21,939 nucleotides of DNA, taken from the IMG/VR virus record IMGVR_UViG_3300042691_008937, positions 1-21,939 of that record; one strand, written 5' to 3'. Source of the stretch: a virus. Numbering within the stretch: position 1 is the first letter of the stretch; each line of letters starts with the position of its first letter. The notes beneath the pieces were generated by a model. It saw nothing but the letters and a program-made list of their open reading frames with translations. It did no database searches and had not been told where the DNA came from. Shown in pieces: positions 5,854 through 19,910 of this stretch. The position numbers and the translations under genes were made by a program.

Positions 5854-6264
5854 ATGGCAAAGCTGGTCCTCAAAGATGCGAACATCGTGTTCAACGGCAC
5901 GGACATCTCAGCGAATGTTGCGTCTTTGACGCTGTCCACCACGGCCGCTGAAGTTGCGACCACCGCCTTCGGATCGTCAGCCGTGACACGAGTTTCGGGA
6001 CTTATCGACAACTCCGTCACGTTCAGCATCCACAACGACTACAACGCCATCGACGGAATCTTCTTCCCGTTGGTCGGCTCCACCGCAGTGACCTGCGTTG
6101 TCAAGCCCAACGGAACTGCTGCTGCTTCGTCGGCCAACCCGTCGTACACCTTCAGCGTGCTCGTCACCGAGTGGACTCCAGTGAACGGTGCAGTCGGCGA
6201 ACTCGCCACCGCAGACGTCACCTTCCCAATCTCCGGTGCAATCACCAAGAGCGTCGGCGCCTAG
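5854..6264 (+). CDS. Major tail (tube) protein
   Basis: This protein is predicted to polymerise into the tail tube. It has 136 residues and starts at ATG 5854 with AGGAG at 5839-5843. It is rich in Ala, Thr, Ser and Val and consists almost entirely of beta strands: MAKLVLKDANIVFNGTDIS, then TTAAEVATTAFGSSAVTRVSG, then a C-terminal strand series ending in ATADVTFPISG. The 'NGTDIS' opening and the terminal 'TFPISG' are typical of siphovirus tube proteins of the lambda gpV / HK97 gp6-tail fold. It sits immediately before the tail-assembly chaperones, its usual place. It is probably one of the most abundant virion proteins. Confidence 0.8.
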   Translation: MAKLVLKDANIVFNGTDISANVASLTLSTTAAEVATTAFGSSAVTRVSGLIDNSVTFSIHNDYNAIDGIFFPLVGSTAVTCVVKPNGTAAASSANPSYTFSVLVTEWTPVNGAVGELATADVTFPISGAITKSVGA

Positions 6265-13895: not shown

Positions 13896-14076
13896 CGCCA
13901 ACAAAGCCGACTCACGTCTCCGTGAGTTCCTCGGCGACCGATGGAAAGACTTCGAGAAAGCGTGCCGTGATGTTGGTATCGCCACCTCCGTCATCCACCG
14001 GGTACTCAAGAACCAAGGGTTCTCTATCTCCTACTCAGCGTTGACTCGTATCCGCACGGAGATTCAGGACTCATGA
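13846..14076 (+). CDS. Small helical protein, HTH-like
   Basis: The protein has 76 residues. AGGAGG at 13832-13837 sits 8 nt before ATG 13846, inside the coding region of the preceding holin candidate, so the start is well supported. The first half is charged (DAVKQEAAKRPNANKADSRL). The second half, AKACRDVG-like followed by VIHRVLKNQGFSISYSALTR, reads like a helix-turn-helix in which the last helix is basic. It may be a DNA-binding regulator or a small terminase-like or packaging accessory protein. Its stop overlaps the phosphoesterase start (ATGA), so the two are coupled. I do not recognise a named family. Confidence 0.65.
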   Translation: MGEFLDAVKQEAAKRPNANKADSRLREFLGDRWKDFEKACRDVGIATSVIHRVLKNQGFSISYSALTRIRTEIQDS

Positions 14077-15080
14077 ACGCCTATGAAGAACAATCACAAA
14101 TTGACGAACTCCAACGCCTCCTCAAAAAGGCGCAAGGAGAAGCAGCCCGAAACAAACGACGAACCGACGACATCGTCCAAGCCATCTATCAGGCCGCCTA
14201 TGAGGCCGCTAAGGCATCTGGGCGAGGACTCGCTGTCAAGCGCCCTGCCGTGGATAAGCGACGTAAAGGGCATGAGGTCGCATTGGTTCACGCCACCGAC
14301 TGGCAGTTAGGCAAGAAGACGTCGTCGTACAACATTGCGGTCGCTGATCGGCGAATCGCCGAGTTCACCGACAAGGTCATCAGCCTCACCGAGATTCAAC
14401 GCAAAGACCACCCGGTCGATGAATGCGTCCTGATGTTAGGTGGTGACATGGTAGAGGGCGGCGGGAATGTATTTAGTTCTCAAGTTTGGGAGATTGAAGC
14501 CCACCTGTTCGAGCAGCTCTTTGAGACCGCTCGACTCATCGAGCGGATGGTGCGCACGTTGCAGGCAAACTTCGCCAAGCCGTTGCGTATCGTCTGCGAA
14601 TGGGGCAACCACGGACGCTTAGGGCGCTACGGGGATGGCACCTACGCCGGGGACAACGCCGACCGAATGGCCTACAAGATCGCCCAAGACCGAACCACCG
14701 ACCTCCCCGCCATCTGGCAACACTCCGACAACTGGTATCAACAGTTCGCCATCGGCAAGTATCGAGTCCTGTTGGTCCACGGAGACGAAATCAAGAGCTT
14801 CGGAGGGAACGTCCCAGCGTTCGGCATCATGCGCAAAGTCAACGCCTGGGCATCAGGCGTCATCCCCGACTTCGACGACTGCTACATGGGCCACTACCAC
14901 CAGAACATCACCATGACACTCGCCAACGGTGGCCGAGTGTTCGTCTCCGGCAGCATCGAATCAGACTCCGACTACGCCAAAGAGTTCGTCGCAGCCACCG
15001 GCAAACCATCCCAACGCCTCCACTTCATCAACCCTGAACGAGGCAGCGTCACCGCAGAGTACGTCGTATGGCTCTCCTAA
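14073..15080 (+). CDS. Calcineurin-like metallophosphoesterase
   Basis: The protein has 335 residues. All metal-binding motifs are in order: ATDWQLG (Asp76, with Gln78 where many have His), LGGDMVEGG (Asp125), EWGNHGR (Asn179 and His180), LVHGDE (His236) and MGHYHQ (His274 and His276). The first 60 or so residues form a charged helical extension likely to be a coiled coil. The D-x-Q variant of motif I occurs in some phosphoesterase branches. Related proteins include Mre11/SbcD nucleases and small phosphodiesterases; the absence of an Mre11 capping domain argues against a straightforward SbcD. A DNA-end or nucleotide-processing role is inferred from the phage setting. The coupled upstream HTH-like gene suggests a joint function. 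Confidence 0.82.
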   Translation: MNAYEEQSQIDELQRLLKKAQGEAARNKRRTDDIVQAIYQAAYEAAKASGRGLAVKRPAVDKRRKGHEVALVHATDWQLGKKTSSYNIAVADRRIAEFTDKVISLTEIQRKDHPVDECVLMLGGDMVEGGGNVFSSQVWEIEAHLFEQLFETARLIERMVRTLQANFAKPLRIVCEWGNHGRLGRYGDGTYAGDNADRMAYKIAQDRTTDLPAIWQHSDNWYQQFAIGKYRVLLVHGDEIKSFGGNVPAFGIMRKVNAWASGVIPDFDDCYMGHYHQNITMTLANGGRVFVSGSIESDSDYAKEFVAATGKPSQRLHFINPERGSVTAEYVVWLS

Positions 15081-15328
15081 ACGAAGCAACCCTCGGAATC
15101 GTGACATGGCATGACGCCCACGCCGAATCAGAATGGCAAGACTTAGACAACCTCGACCAAGACCCATACGTCGTACGGACAGCCGGATGGATACTCCCCG
15201 ACCGCAAACCCGGACACATCGTCATCGTCCAATCCATCGGAGCCGACGACTCCTGCGACGGAGTCCTCTGCATCCCCATCGGAATGGTCGTAAATACCCA
15301 GGTAGTGAGTCGAACCGATCTCAGGTAG
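15068..15328 (+). CDS. Conserved small phage protein of unknown function
   Basis: The protein has 86 residues and begins inside the last codons of the phosphoesterase gene (13-nt overlap). The pattern TLGIVTWHDAHAESEWQDLD, then DPYVVRTAGWILPDRKPGHI, then ADDSCDGVLCIPIGMVV is a compact beta-rich protein that I recall from actinobacteriophage and other phage genomes without a known role. There are no metal-binding motifs apart from scattered His and Asp. The coupling to the phosphoesterase suggests a related task. A 139-base non-coding gap follows. Confidence 0.75.
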   Translation: MALLNEATLGIVTWHDAHAESEWQDLDNLDQDPYVVRTAGWILPDRKPGHIVIVQSIGADDSCDGVLCIPIGMVVNTQVVSRTDLR

Positions 15329-15346
15329 GGTTCGACTTAGACATCA

Positions 15347-15444
15347 CAAGGAGGTGTCCACTAGGCTGACGGACGGTAAGTCCTCGGCCTCGGCGGGCGT
15401 CACGAGTTGACTACCCCGCACAGTTTCCCTCCTTGGCTGTGCGG
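15347..15444 (+). ncRNA. Possible structured leader RNA with pseudoknot
   Basis: The gap 15329-15467 has no convincing ORF but can form three helices. Hairpin 1: AGGCTGA (15363-15369), a bulged C, and GGAC pair with GTCC (15380-15383) and TCGGCCT (15384-15390) around loop GGTAA; 11 pairs. Hairpin 2: CCGCACAG (15416-15423) pairs perfectly with CTGTGCGG (15437-15444), 13-nt loop. Third helix: CAAGGAGG (15347-15354) is complementary to CCTCCTTG (15428-15435) in the loop of hairpin 2. The upstream arm is a perfect Shine-Dalgarno sequence with no ORF after it, while the loop is an anti-Shine-Dalgarno. The signal-peptide lysozyme gene starts at 15468. I do not recognise a known riboswitch class. 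Confidence 0.5.
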
Positions 15445-15467
15445 TCACACCCACGAAAGGTCACCTC

Positions 15468-15986
15468 ATGCGAACCCTCACCGCAACCCTCACACTCACC
15501 CTCATAGCCATCCTCGGACTCGTCCCAGCCATGGCCGCAGAAGCCCCACAACAGCCCTCCAAACGCCCTATGGCATCCACCAGCACCACCACTACCACCC
15601 TCGCTCCGACGCCTCCCAGACGGCCTCTAAACGTCGCTGACGGGCAATCCTGCCCAGGCTGGATAGACGTCGCCCGTGAGGTCGGTTGGCCTGAAGCCGA
15701 ACTACCGATGGTTGGGGCGATCACCTACTTCGAGTCCCGATGTCGGATGGACGTCCGAGGCGACAAAGGCGTCTCATGGACCGCCTTCCAAATCCACACC
15801 AAATCGTGGTGCCGACCCAACCGCTACTACCCGAACGGCTATCTGCAATCGTTGCAAATAGTGAAGACCTGCGAAGACCTCCTCGACCCACACACCGCAG
15901 CCCGAGCAGCCCTCGTCATCTGGCAGTACGGAGGCTGGACACCTTGGACCACCCGCCACCTAGCATCCACCAGTCTCGGCCACTAA
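15468..15986 (+). CDS. Secreted lysozyme-like / lytic transglycosylase
   Basis: The protein has 172 residues. It has a signal peptide (MRT..., a hydrophobic TLTLIAILGLVPAMA core, likely cleavage after AMA at about residue 23), a Thr/Pro-rich linker (STSTTTTTLAPTPP) and a lysozyme-fold domain. GAITYFESRC carries the candidate catalytic Glu89, followed by WTAFQIHTKSWC, a cysteine pair around the domain, DPHTAARAALVIWQYGGWTP and a closing TTRH. The E-S-R motif and the WQYGGWTPW end match actinobacterial transglycosylase-like domains. GAAAGG lies 7 nt before the ATG. It could act on the wall from outside, late in infection or as a secreted factor. It is distinct from the cytoplasmic M15 endolysin. 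Confidence 0.8.
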   Translation: MRTLTATLTLTLIAILGLVPAMAAEAPQQPSKRPMASTSTTTTTLAPTPPRRPLNVADGQSCPGWIDVAREVGWPEAELPMVGAITYFESRCRMDVRGDKGVSWTAFQIHTKSWCRPNRYYPNGYLQSLQIVKTCEDLLDPHTAARAALVIWQYGGWTPWTTRHLASTSLGH

Positions 15987-16022
15987 TGCCCTAAGGTCAA
16001 ATCCGACCCACAAGGAGGGCTC

Positions 16023-16265
16023 ATGAAACCAAAAGAGAAACTGATACTCAACGGCTTGTTCATGTTCGCATGGATAGGACTCTGGCTCACCGGACCAGAG
16101 AACCCCGACAACAAATACACCGACTGGCAAATCGCAATCTTCATTGCGGTACTCGTCATCGGGTTCGTGTCAGCGGTGCGCTCGTGGTCGCAACTCATCC
16201 AGCAGCGTGACGCTGATCGACTCACCGAAATCTTGAAGCGCCGTGACCGACGAACCAATCGCTAA
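16023..16265 (+). CDS. Two-TM small membrane protein, possible holin
   Basis: The protein has 80 residues. AAGGAGGG (16012-16018) precedes ATG 16023. Two transmembrane segments are clear: LILNGLFMFAWIGLWLTG (about residues 7-24) and WQIAIFIAVLVIGFVSAV (about 35-52). A short loop with acidic and basic residues separates them, and a basic tail (EILKRRDRRTNR) follows. This matches small class II holin topology. It lies 36 bases after the secreted lysozyme gene, so the two may form a second lysis pair. Another possibility is a membrane protein that alters host envelope or entry of competing phages. Its end overlaps the WhiB gene by 23 bases. Confidence 0.72.
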   Translation: MKPKEKLILNGLFMFAWIGLWLTGPENPDNKYTDWQIAIFIAVLVIGFVSAVRSWSQLIQQRDADRLTEILKRRDRRTNR

Positions 16266-16539
16266 CTGGACAAACGAAGACAACGTCTTCGTCGGCAAAC
16301 ACCCAGTCTGGTATCGCCACGCAGCTTGCTACGGCAAATCAGGCGACCTGTTCTTTGAGGAAGGTGTGCGACGCCTCGTCATTGAAGCCAAGTCGTACTG
16401 CATCAAATGCCCGGTACGCATCGACTGCCTTGAACATGCCATCAAGCATGAGGAGGTTGGTGTGTGGGGTGGTTTGACGACGACGGAACGTAGGCGTGAG
16501 GCTCGTCGTAGAATCAGGCTCCGTGGCACATCCAAATAA
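16243..16539 (+). CDS. WhiB-family transcriptional regulator
   Basis: The protein has 98 residues. It has the four cysteines of the iron-sulphur centre (Cys29, then C-x2-C-x5-C at Cys53, Cys56 and Cys62), the ACYGKSGDLFFEEG lead-in, and the GVWGGLTTTERR tail: a GVWGG turn followed by a basic helix. This is diagnostic of WhiB proteins, which bind a 4Fe-4S cluster and partner with the host principal sigma factor. GTG 16243 overlaps the previous gene by 23 bases. WhiB is found in actinobacteria and their phages. In mycobacteriophage TM4, a phage WhiB disturbs a host WhiB regulator. Here it may redirect host or phage transcription. Confidence 0.93.
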   Translation: MTDEPIANWTNEDNVFVGKHPVWYRHAACYGKSGDLFFEEGVRRLVIEAKSYCIKCPVRIDCLEHAIKHEEVGVWGGLTTTERRREARRRIRLRGTSK

Positions 16540-16876
16540 ACGCAAAGGCAACCGGGCCGAGCTGCTCGTCGCCAAATGGTTGCGCAAGTTCGGGTGGGTG
16601 AACGCTGAACGCAGTCGTGCCGGATGGACAGACGACCGAGGCGACATCGACGGAATGCCAGGAGTCTGCATCGAGGTCAAAGCCGAGAAGAAAATTGACC
16701 TACCCGGCTACATCCGAGAACTTGAAGTTGAGATGGCCAACGCCCGTGCATGGACAGGAGCCGTCATCGTCAAACGTCGTGGATCAGAAGACGTGGACGA
16801 CTGGTATGCCGTCATGCCTGCCAAGGTGTGGGCGGAGCTTCTCGCTATGCTTGACCAGCCAACACCCCACCGATAA
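16523..16876 (+). CDS. Holliday junction resolvase-like PD-(D/E)XK nuclease
   Basis: The protein has 117 residues from GTG 16523; an in-frame GTG at 16496 would add nine. The core is complete: RKGNRAELLVAKWLRKFGW with Glu13, RAGWTDDRGDIDG with Asp41, and IEVKAEKK with the E-x-K pair Glu51 and Lys53. A C-terminal helix and strand pair follow. This is the arrangement of small archaeal-type Hjc-like resolvases and phage RusA-independent nucleases. It likely resolves branched DNA during replication or recombination. Its start overlaps the WhiB gene, and the recombination nuclease at 16926 lies 49 bases after its stop. Confidence 0.8.
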   Translation: MAHPNKRKGNRAELLVAKWLRKFGWVNAERSRAGWTDDRGDIDGMPGVCIEVKAEKKIDLPGYIRELEVEMANARAWTGAVIVKRRGSEDVDDWYAVMPAKVWAELLAMLDQPTPHR

Positions 16877-16879
16877 AGT
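16851..16879 (+). promoter_or_regulatory. Possible sigma-70-type promoter
   Basis: TTGACC (16851-16856) and TAAAGT (16874-16879) are 17 bp apart, close to consensus at -35 and partial at -10. The start would fall near 16886, 40 bases before the Cas4-like nuclease gene. It lies in the end of the resolvase gene. The match is plausible but chance hits of this quality occur. Confidence 0.4.
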
Positions 16880-16925
16880 ACAGTCAGTAATTCCCAATTA
16901 GCCCAACTACAAGAAAGGCCCGCCA

Positions 16926-18053
16926 ATGCCCGCCACCGACGACTTCACCACAGGTGAAGCACCCAAAGACCGATGGGGTCGATACCTCATCACCACACGC
17001 AGTGGGAAACAAACATCGTTCCCACGAGTCACCACCATCGCCAAATGCTTGGACGACGAAGGTGCGTTGACAGCGTGGAAAGGTCGCATGACTGCGACAG
17101 GACTCGTGCAACGCAACGACCTACTCGTCGCAGCATCAGCAGCACTCGAAGACCGCAACGCACTCGACCGCATCGTCCAACAAGCCATCGAAGCAGCAGG
17201 AGCATCCAGCAAAGCCAACATCGGCACCGCCTTGCACTCACTCACGCAAGCGTTGGACCTCGGCCAGAAACCAGCAATCCTCCCCGGACTACAAACCGAC
17301 GTTGACGCCTACCTCAAAGGCATCGCCGACCACGGCGTCATCATCGACCCACGCTTCGTCGAAGTGCTCCTCGTCAACGAGAAGTACGAGTATGCAGGGA
17401 CAGCGGATCGCATCGCCCGATTCAACACCCGCAAAAAGAAACAGGTGTTCGACTTGAAGACCGGGTCAATCGACTACGCAATGAACGCCATCGCAGTTCA
17501 GATGGCGATGTACGCCAACGCCGAATACATCTACAACTGGCAAACCCAAGAACACATCCCGATGCCAGACATCGACAAGACACGAGGCGTCATCCTGCAT
17601 CTGCCTGCCGGTAAAGGCGAACTCGCCCTCTACGAAGTAGACCTCGTGGCTGGTTGGGAAGCAGCACAGATGGCCATGGACGTGCGAGCATGGCGCAAAC
17701 GCAAAGACCTGCACATAAAAGTGCATGTGGAGGTGGCGGCCAACGACGGGATTCCGCCCACGACCGGAGTCGCCACCTCTACAGCACCCGACCTCAACCG
17801 CACCGACGCACTCACCCGCATCAAGAACCTCCCAGCCCCAGCACAAGAGCTGTTGAAGAAACATTGGCCTGCACCAGGCGTCAAACTGCCCGACCTCAAC
17901 GAAGAGCAGTTGGACATCCTCATGATTCGGTTGGATCAGTTGGAGACCGAGTTCTCTGCCGGGTTCCTCCCCAATAACGAACCCGACCTCCAACCCATCA
18001 CCAAAGCACCAGCCCGCAAGAAGGCACCAGCCAAGAAGAAGGTGACCAAATGA
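16926..18053 (+). CDS. RecB/Cas4-like PD-(D/E)XK exonuclease
   Basis: The protein has 375 residues. The nuclease motifs are in order: GTALHSL (His104), the GTAD turn with Asp161, DLKTG with Asp176 and Lys178, and QMAMYANAE (Gln192 and Tyr196). These are the RecB-type nuclease signatures seen in actinophage proteins called Cas4-like exonucleases. Only one cysteine (Cys41) lies in the first 250 residues, so the iron-sulphur cluster of true Cas4 is not present. The C-terminus is a Lys/Ala/Pro-rich tail (PARKKAPAKKKVTK) that may bind nucleic acid. It is expected to trim double-stranded DNA for recombination with the ssDNA-binding protein at 18450. AGAAAGG precedes ATG 16926. Confidence 0.85.
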   Translation: MPATDDFTTGEAPKDRWGRYLITTRSGKQTSFPRVTTIAKCLDDEGALTAWKGRMTATGLVQRNDLLVAASAALEDRNALDRIVQQAIEAAGASSKANIGTALHSLTQALDLGQKPAILPGLQTDVDAYLKGIADHGVIIDPRFVEVLLVNEKYEYAGTADRIARFNTRKKKQVFDLKTGSIDYAMNAIAVQMAMYANAEYIYNWQTQEHIPMPDIDKTRGVILHLPAGKGELALYEVDLVAGWEAAQMAMDVRAWRKRKDLHIKVHVEVAANDGIPPTTGVATSTAPDLNRTDALTRIKNLPAPAQELLKKHWPAPGVKLPDLNEEQLDILMIRLDQLETEFSAGFLPNNEPDLQPITKAPARKKAPAKKKVTK

Positions 18054-19689: not shown

Positions 19690-19910
19690 GCATCGCCGAC
19701 CCGAAGTTCGCCACCGTCCTCGCCGACTCCGACGGCCACTCACGCTGGGTAGCACACATTGACGCAACCGACGTCATGAACGCCTACCGACAAGGAGGCG
19801 TCCACCTCCTCGTCACCCTCGACCCAGAAGGCACCATCACCGTCGCATTCAAGCCCGGCAGACATTGGGAAGCATCCTGGTCGCCACCGATTACATTGGA
19901 ACGACGATGA
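19686..19910 (+). CDS. Small beta-rich protein, unknown
   Basis: The protein has 74 residues. ATG 19686 overlaps the previous TGA. MSIADPKFATVLADSDGHSR, WVAHIDATDVMNAYRQGG and HLLVTLDPEGTITVAFKPGR indicate a mixed alpha/beta fold with a clear C-terminal hairpin and Trp-rich end (HWEASWSPP). I do not recognise the family. Its stop overlaps the next, Cys-rich microgene. Confidence 0.78.
   Translation: MSIADPKFATVLADSDGHSRWVAHIDATDVMNAYRQGGVHLLVTLDPEGTITVAFKPGRHWEASWSPPITLERR

Follow-up and report, generated by a model that had tools for sequence, protein, structure and literature searches.

In the rhizobial alpha-r14 small RNAs, anti-Shine-Dalgarno (aSD) motifs stay unchanged in the loops while the stems vary (PMC10746234). 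The same text presents alpha-r14/NfeR1 as trans-encoded RNAs with three hairpins, each carrying CCUCCUCCC, and their target as the translation start. The putRNA of phage HK022 measures about 70 nt, folds into two stem-loops whose first and last paired residues are 3 and 72, and acts over at least 10 kb, putL lying just downstream of its promoter (PMC9378689). Start-associated sequences of the cluster K mycobacteriophages are conserved actinophage intergenic elements near start sites. They are repeated many times per genome. In the sdi stem-loop of the lambda S holin gene, an RNA structure located at the holin start sets holin output and balances two start codons.

The element described here was found in a virus record of 21,939 bases (hereafter the window), in a gap of 139 bases (15329-15467) upstream of a lysozyme gene, and no paper on it was found in the literature searched. 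It shares with alpha-r14/NfeR1 an invariant anti-SD sequence in an unpaired loop on varying stems; it differs from them in having two hairpins, one of which carries CCUCCUU, in being phage-borne at a fixed place before lysis genes and in lacking a terminator and an Rfam match. Its loop is complementary to start sites, and the translation start is the target of the rhizobial RNAs (PMC10746234). With HK022 putRNA it shares the length of about 70 nt, the two stem-loops and a place in a phage transcript leader close behind an inferred promoter; an anti-SD loop is not among the features given for HK022 putRNA in the text consulted (PMC9378689). In Rfam 15, no family matched the window at the gathering threshold, in keeping with the earlier note, made from the sequence alone, which had recognized no known class; at relaxed thresholds the window and two relatives, L055 and L074, gave chance-level matches only. 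One of these was CcsR1 (RF02791), a CCUCCUCCC-motif RNA, which scored 10.6 bits in L074 against a gathering threshold of 65.3, that is, at chance level, and did not match the window or L055. Unlike the start-associated sequences, the element is single copy (one per record in 12 of 12 records), and it precedes the lysozyme gene whereas sdi sits at the holin start itself.

The locus and its relatives

The gene order around the element is a phage exonuclease (14073-15080, calcineurin-type in relatives), an 86-aa ORF, the 139-base gap, the lysozyme gene and a gene for an 80-aa membrane-type protein (Table 1); the window also codes for capsid, tail and tape-measure proteins, a WhiB-like regulator, a RusA-like resolvase and another exonuclease. 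For the first exonuclease the closest isolated phage is Actinomycetia phage DSL-LC01 (58%), so that the host is probably an actinobacterium. The lysozyme matched Pfam SLT_3 below the cut-off and its signal peptide was judged by eye. The 80-aa protein, which had no significant Pfam or PHROG match, appears holin-like and is regarded as a putative holin; its gene seems to have its own promoter, a TANNNT box over the lysozyme stop codon followed by AAGGAGG and ATG (15992-16022).

Table 1. Features of the element and of its surroundings, in window positions
Feature	Position	Strand	Basis
TAGGGT, upstream -10-like box	15326..15331	+	TAGGGT or TAGCGT in 21/22, none in L074
TAGACA, -35-like hexamer, spacer 18	15338..15343	+	NNGACA in 19/22
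AAGGAGG, orphan SD-like site, no start codon in the window	15348..15354	+	21/22, absent in L074
TAGGCT, -10-like box of the probable RNA promoter	15362..15367	+	TAGGCT in 14, TATGCT in 8 of 22
Structured RNA, two abutting hairpins P1 and P3	15375..15444	+	70 nt (69-73 nt in relatives); consensus fold and covariation
P1 5' arm, first letters GG at the probable +1	15375..15390	+	covariation
P1 3' arm, ending directly before P3	15395..15415	+	covariation
P3 hairpin with anti-SD loop	15416..15444	+	100% of cells paired
CCTCCTT loop core	15428..15434	+	invariant, 22/22
Lysozyme with signal peptide, 172 aa	15468..15986	+	profile match to lysozyme chains 2fbd (3e-9) and 3cb7
TAAGGT, -10-like box at the lysozyme stop codon	15992..15997	+	TANNNT-type in 28/28 distinct intergenic stretches, by eye
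AAGGAGG, SD of the next gene	16012..16018	+	8-9 bp complement of the P3 loop; inverted repeat I4
Membrane-protein-like gene, 80 aa, two hydrophobic stretches	16023..16265	+	holin-like by size, place and hydrophobicity

Relatives were gathered from 31 loci reached via the lysozyme and 80 reached via the exonuclease, with more contigs from pattern scans, and the element was present in 45 contigs as 22 distinct element sequences. A search with model R1 returned one strong copy each in 45 of 48 sources, the exceptions being three terminase loci (L178-L180); in the window, the element scored 91.7 bits and the next best match 7.8 bits. In L148 the contig stops within the element, and L139 gave a further R1 match that is weak (19.8 bits, E 0.29). 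L177, an AAGGAGG pattern match in an unrelated AT-rich contig (judged from 350 bases), and the chance matches L230 and L231 were excluded from the counts. Wherever the lysozyme gene is in view, the element lies directly upstream of it. All copies are from one group of uncultured phages, L074 being the only distant one among the 22, with a lysozyme 41% identical to that of the window. Over 27 loci, the mean pairwise distance amounted to 9% for the RNA (DNA letters), 34% for the lysozyme and 48% for the membrane protein (amino acids). As placed by hand in contigs G007, G016, G024, G025, G029, G035, G036 and G041, a terminase match follows the element at a distance of about 9.5-10 kb in some relatives and precedes it by 21-24 kb in others, which suggests a circular map of about 33 kb.

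Cellular genomes gave six matches, all attributed to chance on reading the sequences; none of 296 genomes of one phylum matched R1 (a set centred on a Mycobacteriales record, searched under strict filters and with no positive control), and INPHARED phages gave none by DNA or by lysozyme, with short chance pieces only. No R1 match was obtained in the 36 exonuclease relatives L077-L112, some of which are too short to reach the place. Loci L077-L084, L099 and L104 possess a similar exonuclease and the 86-aa gene, lack the element and carry directly at that place a TAAGGT- or TAGGGT-type box, GGAGG and ATG; the locus therefore exists with and without the RNA. Among the distant lysozyme loci L272-L311, 0 of 40 had an R1 match, L272 giving one partial match on the other strand (E 1.2). 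In L273, L275, L277, L278 and L281-L283 of the distant lysozyme group, a long hairpin is located inside the signal-peptide coding region near the lysozyme start (about 2775-2890 in L277); it is formed by GTCGTGCGGGG/CCCCGCACGAC or GGCGTGCGGGG/CCCCGCACGCC, with one compensatory change, and encloses CCTCCTTTC, the letters of the 16S anti-SD, which is possibly the same trick by another route.

That the conserved stretch is a DNA element such as a cos, packaging or integration site is very improbable. Some contigs do end nearby, and CGGACGGTAA in the window shows what we take to be a resemblance to the cos overhang of cluster A mycobacteriophages; however, CGGACGGTAA is not conserved among relatives, the ends of 43 contigs are spread over the map, and the tolerance of G-U pairs reported below is RNA-like.

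Two abutting hairpins read from the plus strand

The gap contains a single perfect stem of 8 bp or more, CCGCACAG/CTGTGCGG (hairpin P3), and its loop CCCTCCTTG has an 8-base complement, CAAGGAGG, at 15347-15354. Among 2000 dinucleotide shuffles of the gap, 63 contained such a stem, and none of these also offered the loop 8 complementary bases at another place in the gap; the gap region also folded moderately better than shuffles (z -2.8 and -2.4). The earlier note had combined this hairpin and its complement, both of which are indeed present, with an 11-bp bulged hairpin with a GGTAA loop. The latter appears in folds of the window sequence alone and was rejected on the relatives, in which 76.9% of its cells are paired, no pair is changed on both sides and 8 of 11 pairs either break or vary in just one partner; the conserved stem is P1 instead. 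Two further candidates were discarded, a hairpin around AAGGAGG (TGGAC..GTCCA), several pairs of which fail in relatives, and a GCGGG/CCCGC stem, which is invariant and hence uninformative. The limits first proposed, 15347-15444, are retained at the 3' end and replaced at the 5' end by the first base of P1.

RNAalifold on all 22 sequences gave P3 and a stem starting from the GG at 15375, which the first reading had missed. Folded alone from this GG to the end of P3, each of the 22 sequences adopted the same two-hairpin layout, with zero free bases between P1 and P3 and local differences in upper P1. The covariation statistics were computed on the 15 of the 22 sequences that differ from one another within the RNA. 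Over 26 pairs, 96.9% of cells were paired and five pairs were changed on both sides, in 19 cells. None of 500 shuffles reached the observed percentage paired, none the covariation score, 7 the number of pairs and 90 the count of additional pair types; in the slid controls, all of them far lower, no pair was changed on both sides. In P1, columns 3-41 are occupied by UA (7), CG (4), UG (3) and AU (1), columns 12-29 by GC (9), UA (4) and UG (2), and in the lower part column 40 finds its partner, by AU, GC or CG, in column 4 or column 5 in 14 of 15 sequences (all but L074). In P3, pair 49-70 is CG in 5, UA in 3 and UG in 2 and is absent on both sides in 5, so that both letters of this pair come and go together and, where present, are exchanged among UA, CG and UG; pair 52-67 changes from GC to CG in L074. 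On the plus strand, the proposed pairs include 53 G-U cells against 1 A-C cell, 44 of the 53 coming from three pairs for which every or almost every sequence has U-G, and this asymmetry indicates an RNA read from the plus strand. The proposal of a structured RNA with an anti-SD loop before the lysozyme gene is therefore borne out by covariation in relatives, and two abutting plus-strand hairpins under selection for pairing are almost certainly a real RNA structure.

The same letters could be read from the other strand, the loop being then the SD of a small gene of 25 codons (15359-15434, minus strand). CCAAGGAGG is followed by ATG or GTG in 21 of the 21 element rows printed and a TPAEAED-type peptide is found in 18 of 21 rows; nevertheless, the ORF has only 14 codons in L013, L024, L045, L046 and L149 and is frame-shifted in L021, L025 and L074, no conserved minus-strand promoter was noticed, and the wobble asymmetry is that of a plus-strand RNA. 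Such a gene is accordingly given hardly any probability.

A probable promoter in front of the RNA

A TA(G/T)GCT box is located exactly 7 bases upstream of the first paired GG in 22 of 22 sequences, and the 7-base stretch between them exists in 14 variants. The exceptions to the -35-like NNGACA are L009 and L014 (TGGATT) and L069 (TTGGAC); L074 retains the box, the distance and GACA, with an 18-base spacer that is not alignable. Actinobacterial -10 boxes are of the TANNNT type, and TAGACA-18-TAGGCT was not listed by a generic E. coli-type promoter scan. This fixed arrangement makes it likely that the element has its own promoter, TAGACA - 18 - TAGGCT - 7 - GG, and the RNA probably starts at 15375, which would leave the AAGGAGG of the promoter spacer outside the RNA. 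P1 accounts for one half of a joint change from TAGGCT-TCGGCC to TATGCT-TCTGCC, since the second changing letter pairs with column 29 (GC, UA or UG).

The orphan AAGGAGG was rejected as a normal SD: elements of the TAGGCT type have no start codon after it, and in those of the TATGCT type an ATG lies 8 bases on, with an ORF that in some of them continues into the lysozyme, the L021 group being an exception. In L024, L026-L028, L039, L040 and L046, the ORF from this ATG has 207-214 aa, in frame into the lysozyme. Elsewhere in the window, inside a gene, CAAGGAGGCGTCCAC at 19791-19805 is identical to spacer letters of other element types and occurs only in the window and L002/L159; the second AAGGAGGCGTCCAC, at 19792, was put down to chance, as it is found only in the window and its near-copy.

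A TAG(G/C)GT box accompanies AAGGAGG in 21 of 21 sequences, both being missing in L074, and as read by eye it is retained in relatives where the upstream ORF stops earlier; a longer transcript containing AAGGAGG is therefore possible in those 21. On such a transcript, started from TAGGGT or arising by read-through, AAGGAGG and the P3 loop would form a pseudoknot with which the 30S subunit competes, and lysozyme expression would be set in cis. The complement CAAGGAGG/CCTCCTTG extends over 8 bp in 20 of 22 sequences and 7 bp in L069, and two fixed partners, 16S rRNA and the loop, would explain the invariance of both sides. Against this switch, AAGGAGG stands upstream of the probable start, in the promoter spacer, its pairing with the loop is without covariation, and the lysozyme start itself is not covered. 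The pseudoknot of the earlier note keeps its complement in 21 of 22 distinct elements and fails as an essential feature, the loop being intact in L074 without AAGGAGG. Control of the lysozyme by this cis pairing is consequently considered quite unlikely.

No terminator was found after P3, which does not indicate a discrete small RNA. An RNA cut or ended near 15445 and binding many host and phage SD sites, like the rhizobial aSD small RNAs, would fit the own promoter, the compact fold and the anti-SD loop, and its logic would strongly resemble that of NfeR1 (PMC10746234). The fixed place before the lysozyme gene, where this gene is in view, and the co-inheritance with lysis genes speak against a freely acting RNA, as does the missing terminator, and we regard it as decidedly unlikely.

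Antitermination of the put type, in which the nascent two-hairpin leader would bind RNA polymerase, at the beta' zinc-binding domain if it acts as put does, and carry it past terminators along the lysozyme to terminase block, is a serious rival to the lysis leader proposed below, though judged unlikely. The size of about 70 nt, the two stem-loops, the pairing from +1 to +70 and the place agree closely with HK022 putRNA, and a terminase match lies about 9.5-10 kb downstream in three relatives (distances by hand). This reading, however, leaves unexplained an exact anti-SD loop that remains unchanged while its flanks gain bases, and no terminators above chance were found in 14000-17000. R1 found nothing in HK022 NC_002166 26000-34000, an 8-kb region in which the put sites are unannotated, sequence likeness being in any case unnecessary for such a function. 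To our knowledge, there is no put-like RNA described in actinophages.

Partners of the loop and a model of lysis control

The loop core CCTCCTT is unchanged in all 22 sequences while the loop flanks gain C or T and the letters of the P3 stem compensate, and an invariant core on a changing stem suggests a base-pairing loop. CCTCCTT-type letters also form the 3' end of 16S rRNA. The candidate partners are the orphan AAGGAGG, the SD of the holin-like gene and host SDs, and on the sequences compared the chances that the loop does base-pair with a Shine-Dalgarno site seem evenly balanced.

AAGGAGG precedes the holin-like gene in 43 of 43 loci reaching that gene, L074 included (46 loci were given, of which L023 is without the element and L032 and L064 stop short of that gene). 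In relatives lacking the element, AAGGAGG was found before a gene start in 0 of 14 matching regions, with orthology taken by region, not gene by gene, and with three loci showing no site of any kind. The loop duplex was calculated at -17.5 kcal/mol with the holin-like start, -14.7 with the orphan AAGGAGG and -4.4 with the lysozyme start; the holin-like site ranks first among the window start sites, though an unrelated start at 5854 follows within 0.2 kcal/mol. As a strong SD of generic type, AAGGAGG would be complementary to any anti-SD loop, and the loop and the holin-like SD showed no covariation. A pairing of P3 with coding letters of the holin-like gene (repeat I3) was rejected, those letters varying between relatives. 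The SD of the holin-like gene is put forward tentatively, as a possible main target of the loop.

Over 27 linked and partly near-identical loci, element distances correlated with gene distances at rho 0.72 for the holin-like gene, 0.64 for the lysozyme and 0.31 for the upstream exonuclease; at a given lysozyme distance, the partial correlation between element and holin-like gene was 0.47 (permutation p 0.001). As the element distances track the membrane protein and the lysozyme more than the exonuclease, control of lysis genes is favoured. We therefore hold, at somewhat less than even confidence, that the element may be a structured leader RNA of the phage lysis operon, whose loop would pair with a strong SD, most likely that of the holin-like gene. 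This pairing would occur either in cis, within one mRNA, or in trans; the lysozyme, whose weak site hardly matches the loop, would accumulate while the holin is held back, and the holin would be released once holin mRNA from its own -10-like box lacks the leader or outnumbers it. Two observations are unaccounted for by this lysis leader, the AAGGAGG between -35 and -10 in 21 of 22 sequences and the near-invariant letters of upper P1.

Holin and antiholin proteins are the usual explanation for the timing of lysis. A stronger form of the lysis leader, which we consider doubtful, would make the element a new RNA class acting as a lysis clock, in which a promoter-borne two-hairpin leader masks the holin start by its anti-SD loop, in cis or in trans, so that the endolysin comes first; RNA pairing, in place of antiholin proteins, would in that case determine the order of endolysin and then holin. 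In phages with probably actinobacterial, uncultured hosts, conserved structured RNAs are little charted. The present one is compact, its covariation is solid, its start base is predicted, and the role of its one loop is open to tests by a few base changes. If the RNA were put-like, factor-free antitermination would be extended beyond the lambdoid phages; if its loop sets holin output, it would represent an RNA lysis timer.
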